Shown here: positions 15,319-45,499 of the stretch, piece after piece
How positions within the stretch are numbered: position 1 is the first letter of the stretch
How the letters are laid out: each line of letters starts with the position of its first letter
Source: Gordonia sp. KTR9
Lineage (GTDB): Bacteria > Actinomycetota > Actinomycetes > Mycobacteriales > Mycobacteriaceae
Reading direction: 5' to 3'
Assembly: GCF_000143885.2 (NCBI RefSeq)
Contig: NC_018581.1
Location: 2,356,001 to 2,420,000 of the forward strand
Length of the DNA stretch: 64,000 nt
Position numbers and translations under genes: made by a program
The notes under the pieces: generated by a model
The model's input: only the letters and a program-made list of their open reading frames with translations
Databases searched by the model: none
What the model was told of the DNA's origin: nothing

Positions 15319-16011
15319 TCAGGACCGCGGGACGACGAAGATGGCGCGCGCGGCGATGTCGCCGAGATCGATCGGATCGGCGTCGTCGAGCGACACCGAG
15401 ATCGTCCCCGCGAAGGGACGTTTCTCGGCGACGGTCACCACGCAGTCGAGCGCGACGCCCACCTGGTCGAAGTAGCGCAGCATCTCGGGATCGGTGTCGG
15501 AGATCCGGGCGATGGCGCCGGACGCCCCGACCTCCAGGTCGGCGAGCAGCGCCGCATCCGGCGCGGGGATCGAGCCGTCCAGTGCGGGGATGGGGTCGCC
15601 GTGCGGATCCCGGTCGGGGAAGCCGAGTTTCGCGTCGAGCCGAGCCATGAGCCGGTCGGACACCGCGTGCTCGAGGATCTCCGCCTCGTCGTGCACCTCG
15701 TCCCACCGGTATCCGAGTTCGCGGACGAGAAAGGTCTCGAGCAGACGATGACGACGCACCATCAGGATGGCCGCGGACCGGCCCTCGTCGGTGAGTGTGA
15801 CCGCGCCGTACGGTTCGTGCGAGACGAAGCCCTGGTCGGCGAGTTTGCGGATCGCCTCCGAGGCGGTGGATGCGGACACGCCGAGCGACTGGGCCAGCAG
15901 CTTGGTGGTGACCTTGACGTCTTCCCACTCCTGGCTGGTCCAGATCACTTTCAGATAGTCCTGGGTCACCTGTGACAGTTCTGTCACCGGACGATCCGAT
16001 CCCCGAGGCAT
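15319..16011 (-). CDS. mntR: DtxR-family manganese-responsive repressor
   Basis: A 230-aa DtxR-family regulator in the position of Rv2788 (SirR/MntR). The winged helix covers residues ~10-70, with LAQSLGVSASTASEAIRKL as helix-turn-helix. The dimer/metal domain has RRHRLLETFL and DEVHDEAEILEHAVSD, carrying the His/Glu ligands. A C-terminal FeoA/SH3-like domain follows. With Mn2+ it should bind DNA and shut off manganese uptake. ATG at 16011 chosen; upstream extension to 16500 would overlap ribF. Iron rather than manganese sensing cannot be excluded from sequence alone. Confidence 0.88.
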   Translation of the reverse strand: MPRGSDRPVTELSQVTQDYLKVIWTSQEWEDVKVTTKLLAQSLGVSASTASEAIRKLADQGFVSHEPYGAVTLTDEGRSAAILMVRRHRLLETFLVRELGYRWDEVHDEAEILEHAVSDRLMARLDAKLGFPDRDPHGDPIPALDGSIPAPDAALLADLEVGASGAIARISDTDPEMLRYFDQVGVALDCVVTVAEKRPFAGTISVSLDDADPIDLGDIAARAIFVVPRS

Positions 16012-17522: not shown

Positions 17523-17929
17523 TCGTATTGAGGTATCCACAGTCGGCGGTGATACGCTGACAGACGGATCGTGCCGAAACTCGAGGCAGTGCGGAACGAC
17601 CAGCCAGATCGGTCCTCGGTAGTGGCCGCCGGAACCCCTGCCCGGGCAACCCCCGGGCGTGCAGGATTCCGGCCGCTTCGATCGAAGGCCGTCTGAGCAC
17701 TCATCCGGCGCAGACACGCTGCGCCATTCACCGTGCTGCCGCACATTCTCGGTGCGTTCTGGGTCGGTCCGATCCGCGCGTGCGCTCTCACGGACGTGTC
17801 CGCTCGATGCGGCATGTGAGTAGGTGCTGCGCACCTCCGCGATGACCACCCCCAACCGCACAAGCGGCCGATTTCGTGCCGCGTCAGACGGCCGCCACCG
17901 GCAGCCGCAACGAAGGGATTCCACCCCAC
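17523..17929 (+). other. rpsO-pnp spacer / pnp leader
   Basis: A 407-nt stretch with no convincing gene. It holds a -10-like TACGCT near 17554, and a nested stem-loop at 17629-17672: CCGGAA/TTCCGG outside, CCTG/CAGG in the middle, CCCGGG/CCCGGG inside. A long structured leader before pnp is the place where RNase III and PNPase autocontrol act in E. coli and Streptomyces; the same role here is an inference. The last ~250 nt before the pnp ATG show nothing clear. Confidence 0.5.
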
Positions 17930-41240: not shown

Positions 41241-44237
41241 ATGGCTTCGAAGGCAAGCACGGGTACGCGCGCGTCCTCTTCGCGCGGCGCCGCCGGTTCT
41301 CCACGCGGGAGTTCGACGCGTGCCGGATCGGCGCGTGGTGGTTCGACGCGCGGGAGTTCGACAGCGAGTCGGCGCTCGACGAGCGGTGGGGCGAAGGGCG
41401 GGGGTTCGAAGAGCAACGGTTCGAAGAGCAGCGGTTCGACGGGCCGATCGAAGAGCGGGGCCTCGACGAGGTCGAAGGCCGGTGCGTCGCGGGGCAGCGC
41501 GCGGTCCAACCCACGTTCGGAGTCGGTGGATCTGCATCGTCGATCCGTCGCCGCGGCCGGGGCGTCCGCGGTCGGCAAGGGCATCGGCGCCGGATGGTCG
41601 CTGTTCGCGCGTGGAGTCGGCAGTGCCGCCCGGGCGGGGTCGGGCGTCGGACGCGGACCGCGCACCGAAGTCGTCGGGGAGTTCGACGACATGGACGATG
41701 CCGACCTGGATCAGGACCTGTTCGACGACGACTCCGGGCCGGACGGGCGTGGCCGGCCCGGGGCCGGCGGTCACAGCCATCGACGGGACGGCATCGCGCT
41801 CGGTCTGCTCGCCTTCGGTCTGCTCGTCGGCGCCAGCGTCTGGTTCGGCGCGGCCGGTCCGGTGGGCGCATTCATCGAGGCCCTCATCCGCGCGGTCATC
41901 GGCGCCGCGGCCGTGCTGGTCCCGATCGGTCTCCTCGCGCTCGCGATCATCTTGATGCGCCGCCCGGCCGCCCCGGAGCGTCGTGGACGCTACCTGGCCG
42001 GCGGGTTCCTGGTCGCTCTGCCGCTGCTCGGTCTGATGCACCTCATCGCCGGGGCACCGGTGGATCTCCCGGGCCGTTCCGAGGCGGCCGGGTTCGTCGG
42101 CTTCGCGGTCGGCACGCCGTTGACGGCGGGTGTCACCGCCTGGGTCTCCGTACCGATTTTGTTGCTGTGCATGGCTTTCGGTGTCCTCATCCTCAGCGGG
42201 CGGACCGTCCGCGAGGTCGTCGACGCGGCCGCCGGCTACCTCGGCCTCGGTATGGGGCACGACGACGCGCCCTGGGACGACGACGAATGGGATGCCGACG
42301 CGGAGAACTACGACAATCCCGACTTCGGCGATCCGGCCGACACCGACGCCGACGTCGACGCCGACCCGTGGGATTCCGGAGCGCTCGATTCGCGGTCCCG
42401 GCGCCGCCCGTATTCGTCGAACCCGTACGACAACTACCCGCCGGATTCGGCACCCGCGCGGACCGCGGGACGGACCTCCCGGCGCAAGCCCGCCGAGGTC
42501 GCCGACGTCACCCCGCTCGAGGAGGCCGTGACCGAGAATCTCGCGGACGCCCACGAGGGTGTCACCGAGCAGGTCACCGAGGTGATCGCGCCGAGTCCCC
42601 GCTCGCGTGCCACGCCCGCCCGACGGGCGGCCGCGCGGCCCGCGCCGCGTCCCGCGCCCGAACCGGAGCCCCAGCGCGAATCCGAGCCCGACGACGAGAT
42701 CGCCGACGACGAGGCCTTCGTCCCGTCGGACCCGACGGCGGATGGGGACTACCGGCTGCCGCCGCCTGATCTGCTCCTCGAGGGCGATCCGCCCAAGATG
42801 GGCAGCAGCGCCAACGACGACATGATCGACCGGATGACCGGCGTGCTCGAGCAGTTCAAGATCGACGCCGCGGTCACCGGATACACCCGCGGACCGACCG
42901 TCACGCGGTACGAGATCGAGCTCGGTCCGGGCGTCAAGGTCGAGAAGATCACCGCCCTGCAGCGCAACATCGCCTATGCCGCCGCGACCGACAACGTCCG
43001 CCTGCTCGCACCGATCCCCGGCAAGTCCGCGGTCGGTATCGAGGTCCCCAACTCCGACCGGGAGATGGTCCGGCTGGCCGACGTCCTGAACTCGCCGTCG
43101 ACGCGGAAAGACAAGCACCCGTTGGTGATCGGGCTCGGCAAGGACATCGAGGGCGATTTCGTCAGCGCGAACCTGGCGAAGATGCCGCATCTGCTCGTCG
43201 CCGGTTCGACCGGCTCGGGCAAGTCGAGCTTCGTCAACTCGATGCTCGTGTCGCTCCTCAGCCGCGCGACCCCCGAGCAGGTGCGGATGATCCTCATCGA
43301 CCCGAAGATGGTCGAACTCACCCCGTACGAGGGCATCCCGCACCTCATCACACCGATCATCACGCAACCCAAGAAGGCGGCCGCGGCCCTCGCATGGCTC
43401 GTCGAGGAAATGGAGCAGCGGTACCAGGACATGAAGGCGTCGCGGGTGCGACACATCGACGACTTCAACTCGAAGGTCCGATCCGGTGACATCACCACAC
43501 CGCTGGGCAGCGAACGCGTCTACAAGCCGTATCCGTACATCCTCGCGATCGTCGACGAGCTCGCCGACCTGATGATGACCGCACCCCGGGACGTCGAGGA
43601 CGCGATCGTGCGCATCACGCAGAAGGCCCGCGCCGCCGGCATCCATCTGGTGCTCGCGACGCAGCGACCGTCGGTCGACGTCGTCACCGGTCTGATCAAG
43701 ACCAATGTGCCGTCGCGGCTGGCGTTCGCGACGTCGTCGTTGACCGACTCACGCGTCATCCTGGACCAGCCGGGCGCCGAGAAGCTGATCGGCATGGGCG
43801 ACGGCCTCTTCCTGCCGATGGGTGCCAACAAGCCGATTCGCATGCAGGGTGCCTACATCACCGACGAGGAGATCGCGGCGGTCGTCGACTTCTCCAAGGA
43901 GCAGGCCGAGCCGGAGTACACCGAGGGTGTCACCGCGGCGAAGGCGGGCGACAAGAAGGACATCGACAGCGACATCGGCAACGACCTCGACGATCTCCTG
44001 CAGGCGATCGAACTGGTCGTGTCGAGCCAGTTCGGGTCGACGTCGATGCTGCAGCGCAAGCTGCGTGTCGGCTTCGCCAAAGCAGGCCGGTTGATGGACC
44101 TGATGGAGACCCGGGGAGTGGTCGGTCCGAGCGAGGGGTCGAAGGCGCGGGAGGTGCTCGTCAAGCCCGACGATCTCGCGGGTGTGATCGCCTCGATCAC
44201 CGGCGGAGGCGACGAAACGGACACTTCCGACACCTGA
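41241..44237 (+). CDS. ftsK: DNA translocase FtsK/SpoIIIE
   Basis: A 998-aa FtsK that pumps chromosomal DNA through the septum and helps XerCD resolve dimers. Residues 1-95 are a very basic Ser/Gly/Arg/Lys-rich stretch with repeated SKSxGS units. Several membrane helices span ~180-330. An acidic/Pro-rich linker leads to the motor: Walker A GSTGSGKS (about 655-662), [12 protein letters not shown] and Walker [10 protein letters not shown]. The C-terminal gamma winged helix ([29 protein letters not shown]) reads KOPS-like sequences. Start ATG is preceded directly by a -10 box. Confidence 0.96.
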
Positions 44238-44281
44238 GGCGGGCGTCTGACCAGGGGTTTCTGCACGTCACCGGGAGTTTG

Positions 44282-44287
44282 TATAAG
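44282..44287 (+). promoter_or_regulatory. Candidate -10 box of the riboswitch-terC unit
   Basis: TATAAG, in the extended form TGTATAAG, lies just before the first base-paired arm of the riboswitch, so transcription would start at about 44292-44294. Confidence 0.45.
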
Positions 44288-44291
44288 GTGA

Positions 44292-44422
44292 CCAGAGATC
44301 CATGAGGGGAGTATCCCCAAAGCGGCGTTTCCGTCAATACGGTCACGAACCGCGACGATGCCGATCATCGTCGCGGCCGTGGCCCGGAGCGTCGGCCCCC
44401 GTTCGGTGGGAGAGACCTCTGG
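44292..44422 (+). ncRNA. yybP-ykoY manganese riboswitch
   Basis: The leader has the hallmarks of the yybP-ykoY family. P1 closes CCAGAG (44292-44297) with CTCTGG (44417-44422). The first arm carries the conserved GGGGAGTA followed by CCCC (44306-44318). Next is the small hairpin CCGTCAATACGG (44331-44342), then a variable 10-bp stem (44351-44360 with 44366-44375, loop CCGAT), and last the conserved GGGAGAGACC (44408-44417). This class binds Mn2+ at the interface of its two loops and turns on Mn2+ exporters. The downstream gene is a TerC-family exporter, as expected. Identified by eye. Confidence 0.88.
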
Positions 44423-44458
44423 CTCGTCAGCTCATGCTGCCTGCTGGAGGTTCTTGTA

Positions 44459-45499
44459 ATGGATGTGTCGCTGTCCGTCTGGCTGATCACCTGTGCGGTG
44501 ATCGTCGGACTGTTCGTGTTCGACTTCTTCACCCACGTGCGTGTGCCGCACGCCCCCTCGCTCAAAGAGTCGGGCATCTGGTCGGCGGTGTACATCTCCA
44601 TCGCCATCCTGTTCGGTCTGTTCGTCTGGTGGCAGTGGGGATCCACGTACGGCGGTGAGTACTTCGCCGGCTACGTCACCGAGAAGGCGCTCTCGGTGGA
44701 CAACCTGTTCGTCTTCGTCATCATCATGGCGAAGTTCGCGGTGCCCAAGGAGTACCAGCAGAAGGTCTTGCTGCTCGGCATCCTGATGGCCCTGGTCATG
44801 CGCGGCATCTTCATCGCCGTCGGCGCGGCCGCGATCAACGCCTACAGCTGGGTGTTCTACCTGTTCGGCGCGTTCCTGATCTTCACCGCCGTCAAGCTGC
44901 TCCGCGAGAGCGACGACCCGGTCGAGCACGAGGAAGACCGCGAAACCCGCCTGGAGCGCTTCGTCAAGCGCTACCTGCGTACGCACGACAGCTACGACGG
45001 CGACAAGCTGTTCACCCGCGTGAACGGCAAGCGCCTCGCCACCCCGATGCTCATGGTCTTGATCGTCATCGGCTTCACGGACATCCTGTTCGCGCTCGAC
45101 TCGATCCCGGCCATCTACGGCCTCACCTCCGAGCCCTACCTGGTCTTCACCGCCAACGCCTTTGCCCTGATGGGTCTGCGTCAGCTGTTCTTCCTCATCG
45201 GTGGGCTGCTCGATCGTCTGGTGTACCTGTCGATCGGCCTGTCGATCATCCTCGCGTTCATCGGCGTCAAGCTGGTGCTGCACGCCCTGCACGAGAACAC
45301 CCTGTCGTTCATCAACGGCGGCGAGCATGTGGCCGTCCCCGAGATCTCGACCGGGTTGTCGTTGTCGGTGATCCTCGGCGTCCTGGTGATCACGACCGTG
45401 GCGAGCCTCATCAAGAGCCGCGGGGCGGCCGAGGCACCTCAGGTCGACTCCGCGGATGACTCGACCGATGCCCCGGCGCCGAAGTCGAAGGACGTCTGA
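44459..45499 (+). CDS. TerC/Alx-family membrane protein, probable Mn2+ exporter
   Basis: A 346-aa protein with about eight membrane helices. The acidic TerC motifs EKALSVDNLFVFVII and GFTDILFALDSIPAIYG lie in membrane segments and probably bind the metal. TerC/Alx proteins export Mn2+ and are linked to metal homeostasis and loading of exported enzymes. The ATG at 44459 follows GGAGG at 44446-44450. The Mn2+ riboswitch directly upstream is the main support for a manganese role. The last ~25 residues are an acidic tail. Confidence 0.9.
   Translation: MDVSLSVWLITCAVIVGLFVFDFFTHVRVPHAPSLKESGIWSAVYISIAILFGLFVWWQWGSTYGGEYFAGYVTEKALSVDNLFVFVIIMAKFAVPKEYQQKVLLLGILMALVMRGIFIAVGAAAINAYSWVFYLFGAFLIFTAVKLLRESDDPVEHEEDRETRLERFVKRYLRTHDSYDGDKLFTRVNGKRLATPMLMVLIVIGFTDILFALDSIPAIYGLTSEPYLVFTANAFALMGLRQLFFLIGGLLDRLVYLSIGLSIILAFIGVKLVLHALHENTLSFINGGEHVAVPEISTGLSLSVILGVLVITTVASLIKSRGAAEAPQVDSADDSTDAPAPKSKDV

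Follow-up and report, generated by a model that had tools for sequence, protein, structure and literature searches.

Here we ask whether the 221-base intergenic region between ftsK (41241-44237) and terC (44459-45499) of Gordonia sp. KTR9 contains an Mn2+ riboswitch, and by which mechanism the leader within it may control the downstream gene. In the initial annotation of the 64 kb window, as we term the whole stretch of DNA analyzed, this leader was assigned to the yybP-ykoY class with a TerC-type exporter as its target. The class, the target family, and actinobacterial members preceding terC are already known, and members from Corynebacterium were reported in 2013-2014 (PMC3890552, PMC3890534; here and below, published work is cited from excerpts of the papers). 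The leader of C. glutamicum cg2157 (terC) scored 49.13 bits with an older Rfam model and has an observed transcript start (PMC3890552), and the yybP-ykoY copy of C. pseudotuberculosis scored 49.16 bits with an older Rfam model (PMC3890534). These two are actinobacterial members like the window leader, and the C. glutamicum one likewise precedes terC, but they belong to another genus, and the likeness is drawn from their descriptions rather than from a letter-by-letter comparison. Our literature search, in a collection without most subscription journals, found no Mn2+ experiment in the host organism. Among the papers listed, none dealt with manganese riboswitches of Gordonia or Rhodococcus, which is weak evidence of absence. 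We propose (probability about 0.88) that the leader belongs to the alx type within this class and works as a translational ON switch, in which Mn2+ would be the ligand and its binding would switch translation on.

The terC locus and the Rfam model RF00080

The product of the target gene scores 384.2 bits (cut-off 246.4) with the NCBIfam model TIGR03718 (R_switched_Alx), which upholds its assignment to the TerC/Alx family. Among the 80 TerC loci gathered for this study, the closest relatives of the protein come from Gordonia, with at most 89% identity. The host genome has four TerC-family matches over the cut-off, located in three open frames, and the window gene is the strongest by far. Exporter alone may be too narrow a label, since metalation of secreted enzymes is another possible role of TerC proteins (PMC10550928).

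The initial annotation had named a covariance search with RF00080 as one check of its reading. This model (Rfam 15, 177 positions) gave no match at its gathering score across the whole window and none in 44200-44500 even at E up to 10, and in a search of the whole genome the leader was unmatched, the best place, at 11.7 bits, lying elsewhere. Taken literally, this outcome would refute the assignment by the standard of that annotation, but RF00080 is insensitive here, and its negative carries little weight because both E. coli K-12 leaders, mntP and alx, also fall below the gathering score. The tested E. coli sequences are L108, preceding mntP (coding sequence at 1689), and L109 (2371-2505), preceding alx. 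With E allowed up to 10, matches were listed in nine of 14 control genomes, including E. coli and C. glutamicum, and the cut-off was exceeded in two of the 14; among the relatives (20 of the 80 loci run), RF00080 listed a single Rhodococcus leader (L036) at 14.6 bits and E 8.5. The failure on mntP and alx suggests that the model is narrow or poorly built, and it was dropped as arbiter of the class. The only Rfam gathering match within the 64 kb window is an Actino-pnp RNA at 17608-17693 on the + strand (54.2 bits versus a gathering score of 47.7).

An independent covariance model and the anatomy of the aptamer

A covariance model, R1, was built from a subset of the 80 TerC loci. The motif GGGGAGTA in the leader together with a matching 3' end was present in 50 of them, of which 23 were used for training and 27 held out; the 30 loci lacking the motif (15 Nocardia, nine Mycobacterium/Mycolicibacterium/Mycobacteriaceae, two Rhodococcus, and four others) were kept out of the alignments. 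The training set thus comprised 23 actinobacterial leaders and excluded the window, the E. coli sequences, and all members of what we take to be the order Mycobacteriales. The structure of 30 pairs was drawn after the alx and window sequences had been viewed, so the hold-out concerns the sequences and not the drawer's eye.

In the window, R1 matched 44298-44426 at 61.8 bits (E 9.8e-15), with the runner-up in the 64 kb at 11.6 bits. Obtained with a model made free of the window sequence, this match lies far beyond chance and supports membership in the yybP-ykoY class. It also recognized the leader of E. coli alx (53.9 bits, E 2.2e-13), an experimentally Mn-responsive member, but not that of mntP, which was unmatched at E up to 10. 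Among 57 further TerC loci, 27 were matched at 44.8 bits or more, whereas all other listed matches stayed at or below 16. The window leader is the only credible site in the host genome; a second candidate (L116, G000:C2:3881602-3881654; 27.5 bits, E 0.002) was rejected by eye as short GAGGGGAGT-type repeats. A riboswitch at 44.8 bits was also found in a record of Halotalea alkalilenta (L082), presumably a gammaproteobacterium, whose TerC is 65% identical to the window protein; it may reflect either horizontal transfer or contamination.

The alignments support the drawn helices. Of the cells in the training alignment of 23 leaders, 90.3% are paired (79.3% after shuffling); two-sided changes occur in 21 pairs, and covariation scores 0.433 versus 0.220 for shuffles. 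RNAalifold run without a given structure returned largely the same helices. Held out were 29 matches, from 27 loci, the window copy, and alx. In these, 23 of the 30 pairs change on both sides, and the covariation score of 0.489 falls to 0.180 on shuffling and to 0.134 or less on sliding, although this alignment was fitted to R1 and leans towards the model. The motifs GGGGAGTA and CGTCANNACG occur in all 29, and in the helix P1.2 100% of cells are paired, with two-sided change in all four pairs.

The features of the leader and the gene are as follows, with the naming of helices and loops after PMC6754395; all helix pairs except those of P4 were checked on the window sequence.

44284..44289, + strand: probable -10 element TAAGGT (TANNNT type), position conserved among leaders
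44298..44426, + strand: Mn2+ (yybP-ykoY, alx-type) riboswitch aptamer (R1 match)
44300..44307, + strand: switch helix P1.1, 5' strand CCAUGAGG, CCA-U-GAGG with U44303 bulged, pairing with 44416-44422; covariation
44308..44313, + strand: loop L1, 5' side GGAGUA, within the conserved GGGGAGTA
44314..44317, + strand: helix P1.2, 5' strand UCCC, pairing with GGGA 44408-44411
44323..44333, + strand: helix P3, 5' strand, pairing with 44385-44394; covariation
44334..44340, + strand: loop L3 UCAAUAC, at the conserved CGTCANNACG
44341..44384, + strand: P3 extension arm, 44341-44347 with 44378-44384 and 44350-44359 with 44367-44376
44396..44406, + strand: P4 hairpin, short here, from the R1 alignment; covarying helix
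44412..44415, + strand: loop L1, 3' side GAGA (in 51 leaders, GAGA in 44 and AAGA in seven)
44416..44423, + strand: P1.1 3' strand CCUCUGGC, doubling as anti-SD arm in the predicted OFF hairpin; CCUCUGG 44416-44422 closes P1.1
44443..44450, + strand: SD-containing arm GCUGGAGG of the predicted OFF hairpin (GGAGG 44446-44450), 8 bp with 44416-44423 including two G-U
44459..45499, + strand: terC/alx-family gene, 346 aa, start codon ATG at 44459 (PF03741, 176.9 bits; TIGR03718 as above)

The window thus has the core loops L1 (GGAGUA/GAGA) and L3 (CGUCANNACG) with the invariant adenosine, as well as the helices P1.1, P1.2, P3, and P4 with covariation, while the length of the P3 extension arm varies among relatives. 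By its position in L3, A44339 is likely the equivalent of A48 of the X. oryzae RNA, the Mn-coordinating 'invariable adenosine' (PMC6754395). The four-way junction with a P2 helix was not found; since only about 5 nt separate P1.2 from P3, a three-way junction without P2 is predicted. We regard the missing P2 as variation within the class rather than as a defining trait, because alx reads likewise by eye; the mntP leader has P2.

The sequence elements quoted in the initial annotation are all present, namely GGGGAGTA at 44306-44313, CCGTCAATACGG at 44331-44342, GGGAGAGACC at 44408-44417, and GGAGG at 44446-44450, but two of its structural readings had to be replaced. The P1 pairing implied by the annotated bounds, in which CCAGAG (44292-44297) meets CTCTGG, has a 6-base counterpart in only one of the 51 leaders tested, that of the window itself, and gives way to P1.1, in which CCA-U-GAGG (44300-44307) pairs with CCUCUGG (44416-44422). 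The element CCGTCAATACGG, taken as a hairpin, is better explained, given the covarying pairs beside it, as the top of P3 followed by the internal loop L3 and the foot of the helix beyond; a short local hairpin may still form there transiently, since its inner CG ends are invariant.

Comparison with the E. coli alx leader reveals the same L1 (GGAGUA/GAGA), L3 (UCANNACG), P1.1, P1.2, P3, and P4, the same lack of a P2 hairpin by eye, and control of a TerC-family protein. The two leaders differ in the P1.2 pairing (ACUU/AAGU in alx and UCCC/GGGA in the window) and in the distance from the end of the R1 match to the gene start, which is 75 bases in alx versus 32 in the window; alx is, in addition, pH-responsive (PMC9603457). 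With the solved yybP-ykoY aptamers of X. oryzae and L. lactis, the window RNA shares the class, the L1-L3 docking, and the switch helix P1.1, and the 3' segment of the X. oryzae RNA is likewise GAGACC; these aptamers, however, have four-way junctions and are proposed to act by antitermination (PMC6754395), in contrast to the three-way junction predicted here.

A predicted translational switch and its alternatives

A -10 element of the TANNNT type lies 16-30 nt upstream of GGGGAGTA in 32 of 51 leaders, as compared with zero or one of 51 in each of eight background windows, and its window copy would place the transcript start probably near 44295-44297. The search for intrinsic terminators in 44230-44480 returned none, in agreement with the initial annotation, which had seen no clear terminator and had tentatively suggested occlusion of the GGAGG at 44446. 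This suggestion gained support from an SD-arm helix that is conserved in relatives.

The P1.1 strand is of the CCUC type in 34 of the 51 leaders and of another kind in 17. A matching GAG-type arm was found in 33 of the 34 CCUC-type leaders and was absent from one; the helix is extended by at least two pairs in 31 of these 33 and by none in two. On average, 4.58 bp are formed beyond CCUC/GAG in the 33 leaders versus 0.70 bp in shuffles (maximum 1.61 of 1000). This comparison somewhat favors the observed value, as the SD arm was picked for its longest extension, a choice that was not repeated in the shuffles. At position 8 of the helix, the pair is U-A in 14 leaders and C-G in 13, and swapping the arms between loci lowers the pairing from 0.91 to 0.63 at this position and from 0.58 to 0.37 at position 10; positions 5-7 and 9 pair about equally well after the swap and give no separation. 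An initial control, with SD pairing observed in 25 of 51 leaders versus a shuffle mean of 20.8 (maximum 30 of 100), gave no separation either; its shuffles retain the P1.1 strand and the SD and hence their built-in CCUCC/GGAGG complementarity. The unconstrained fold of the window leader is the OFF fold at -80.5 kcal/mol, as compared with -68.0 kcal/mol for the ON fold, in a calculation that leaves out tertiary contacts and co-transcriptional folding. These modeled energies fit a default-OFF, Mn-ON switch, though the gap is large for a metal ion, and thus the timing of co-transcriptional folding may matter.

Because the P1.1 3' strand can pair with the SD arm instead of closing P1.1, and because this design is conserved, a translational ON switch is the most likely mechanism. 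In this scheme, transcription would start directly upstream of the aptamer, and at low Mn2+ the P1.1 3' strand (44416-44423) would pair with the SD arm (44443-44450), so that TerC would not be made. Mn2+ would dock L1 (GGAGUA/GAGA) onto L3 (UCAAUAC) and thereby keep P1.1 closed, which would leave the Shine-Dalgarno sequence free and permit the synthesis of TerC, a protein that would export Mn2+ or pass it to secreted enzymes. In the X. oryzae RNA, Mn2+ lowers the accessibility of the P1.1 3' half (PMC6754395); the same effect would free the SD here. A translational fusion of the alx leader is activated by Mn (PMC9603457), which favors this scheme, although pH modulates that response too.

An Mn2+ riboswitch acting on transcription, through Rho or pausing rather than SD hiding, would be compatible with the lack of a visible intrinsic terminator, and riboswitch leaders are often tied to Rho-dependent termination, according to an excerpt of an E. 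coli mntP study (PMC11647493); we nevertheless consider it unlikely, given that the SD arm is complementary to the P1.1 3' strand with at least two extra pairs in 31 of 33 leaders. The class fold might also respond primarily to alkaline pH or to another divalent metal, with Mn2+ as a secondary signal. Its nearest studied relative, alx, does respond to alkaline pH besides Mn2+: a translational fusion was activated by Mn 3-fold and 6.5-fold at 1 and 2 mM, respectively, in unbuffered medium; this response peaked at pH 8.5, and pH 5 suppressed it (PMC9603457). Against such a primary signal, which we find quite improbable, stand the intact L1 and L3 core loops and the partner genes, which belong chiefly to Mn exporter families; moreover, according to one review, a UPF0016 gene was under the Mn2+ riboswitch in 328 of the 333 screened strains having one (PMC7380456).

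That the leader is no riboswitch at all, being instead a look-alike protein-binding or attenuator element, would agree with the missing RF00080 match. However, neither E. coli leader reaches the cut-off of RF00080 either, while R1 matches the Mn-responsive alx leader across phyla, the helices covary, and the loops are conserved, which leaves this reading with a very small probability.

Distribution, partner genes, and manganese homeostasis

Matches to R1 are common in the host family, where at least 99 of 121 sampled genomes from 27 of 31 genera had a match (E up to 1e-4), including all eight genomes listed as belonging to the own or same genus. Across the phylum, at least 47 matches, the one in the window included, were found in at least 36 of 149 sampled genomes (E up to 0.001). 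Both sets of counts are lower bounds because Infernal's stricter filters were in use. In Nocardia (15 loci) and in the Mycobacterium/Mycolicibacterium/Mycobacteriaceae group (nine loci), no riboswitch was found within 1.2 kb upstream of terC in any of the 24 cases; the TerC homologues of these loci (L043-L077) are 67-75% identical to that of the window.

The genes following the 47 phylum matches were identified with BLAST against a small reference set, supplemented by Pfam for two of the references and for odd cases. They encode TerC/Alx (24), P-type ATPases (10), GDT1 (seven), a Na/Ca exchanger (one), and other proteins (five), so that a gene of one of the four transporter families follows 42 of the 47; in the window, this gene is terC, which places the leader before a manganese homeostasis gene. 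The five others are an M50 peptidase, an M48 peptidase, SAICAR synthetase, a PGPGW protein, and a sigma factor; by eye, the SAICAR synthetase gene lies past a terminator-like hairpin from the R1 match. The matches at L141 and L134 thus precede not transporters but the M48 peptidase, which we take to be HtpX-like, and the M50 peptidase, respectively.

The actinobacterial terC leaders and alx might together form a three-way-junction subclass of Mn2+ riboswitches that is missed by the current Rfam model and that uses two mirror-image translational platforms, a tentative proposal to which we give somewhat less than even odds. In Mycobacteriales and some others, the P1.1 3' strand would hide the SD, while in many Micrococcales a CCCUU element at the SD would be the partner of the P1.1 5' strand. 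In the 17 leaders among L081-L107, mostly from Micrococcales (L107 is from Micropruina, which we assume to belong to another order), the P1.1 3' strand often closes a small hairpin of its own, and in seven of the 17 the 5' strand (CAAGGGG) can by eye be paired with CCCUU at the SD. The longest 5'-strand pairing averages 6.35 in these leaders versus 4.98 after shuffling (maximum 5.76 of 300), and the evidence for the Micrococcales platform is suggestive only.

The initial annotation had further placed mntR in the same window, at 15.3 kb, and combined it with the riboswitch into a two-armed control of manganese.

15319..15993, - strand: DtxR-family repressor, probably MntR, start codon assumed (PF02742, PF01325, PF04023)

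The domains, which include FeoA, and the closest PDB structures, 5zr4 and 5zr6, which we take to be M. tuberculosis MntR, bear out a DtxR-family repressor. Its identity as MntR is only probable, and no NCBIfam model, that of MntR included, reaches its cut-off. The host genome encodes two DtxR-family genes and one NRAMP gene over the cut-off. Upstream of the NRAMP frame, a crude search for palindromes in one stretch turned up no convincing MntR operator. A division of labor in which MntR represses uptake while the RNA turns on export is a plausible guess.

These results imply that the absence of a manganese riboswitch should not be inferred from a negative search with the current RF00080 model. 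For the actinobacterial terC genes, some of them in tractable species, the conserved SD-arm design offers a clear and testable switching mechanism.
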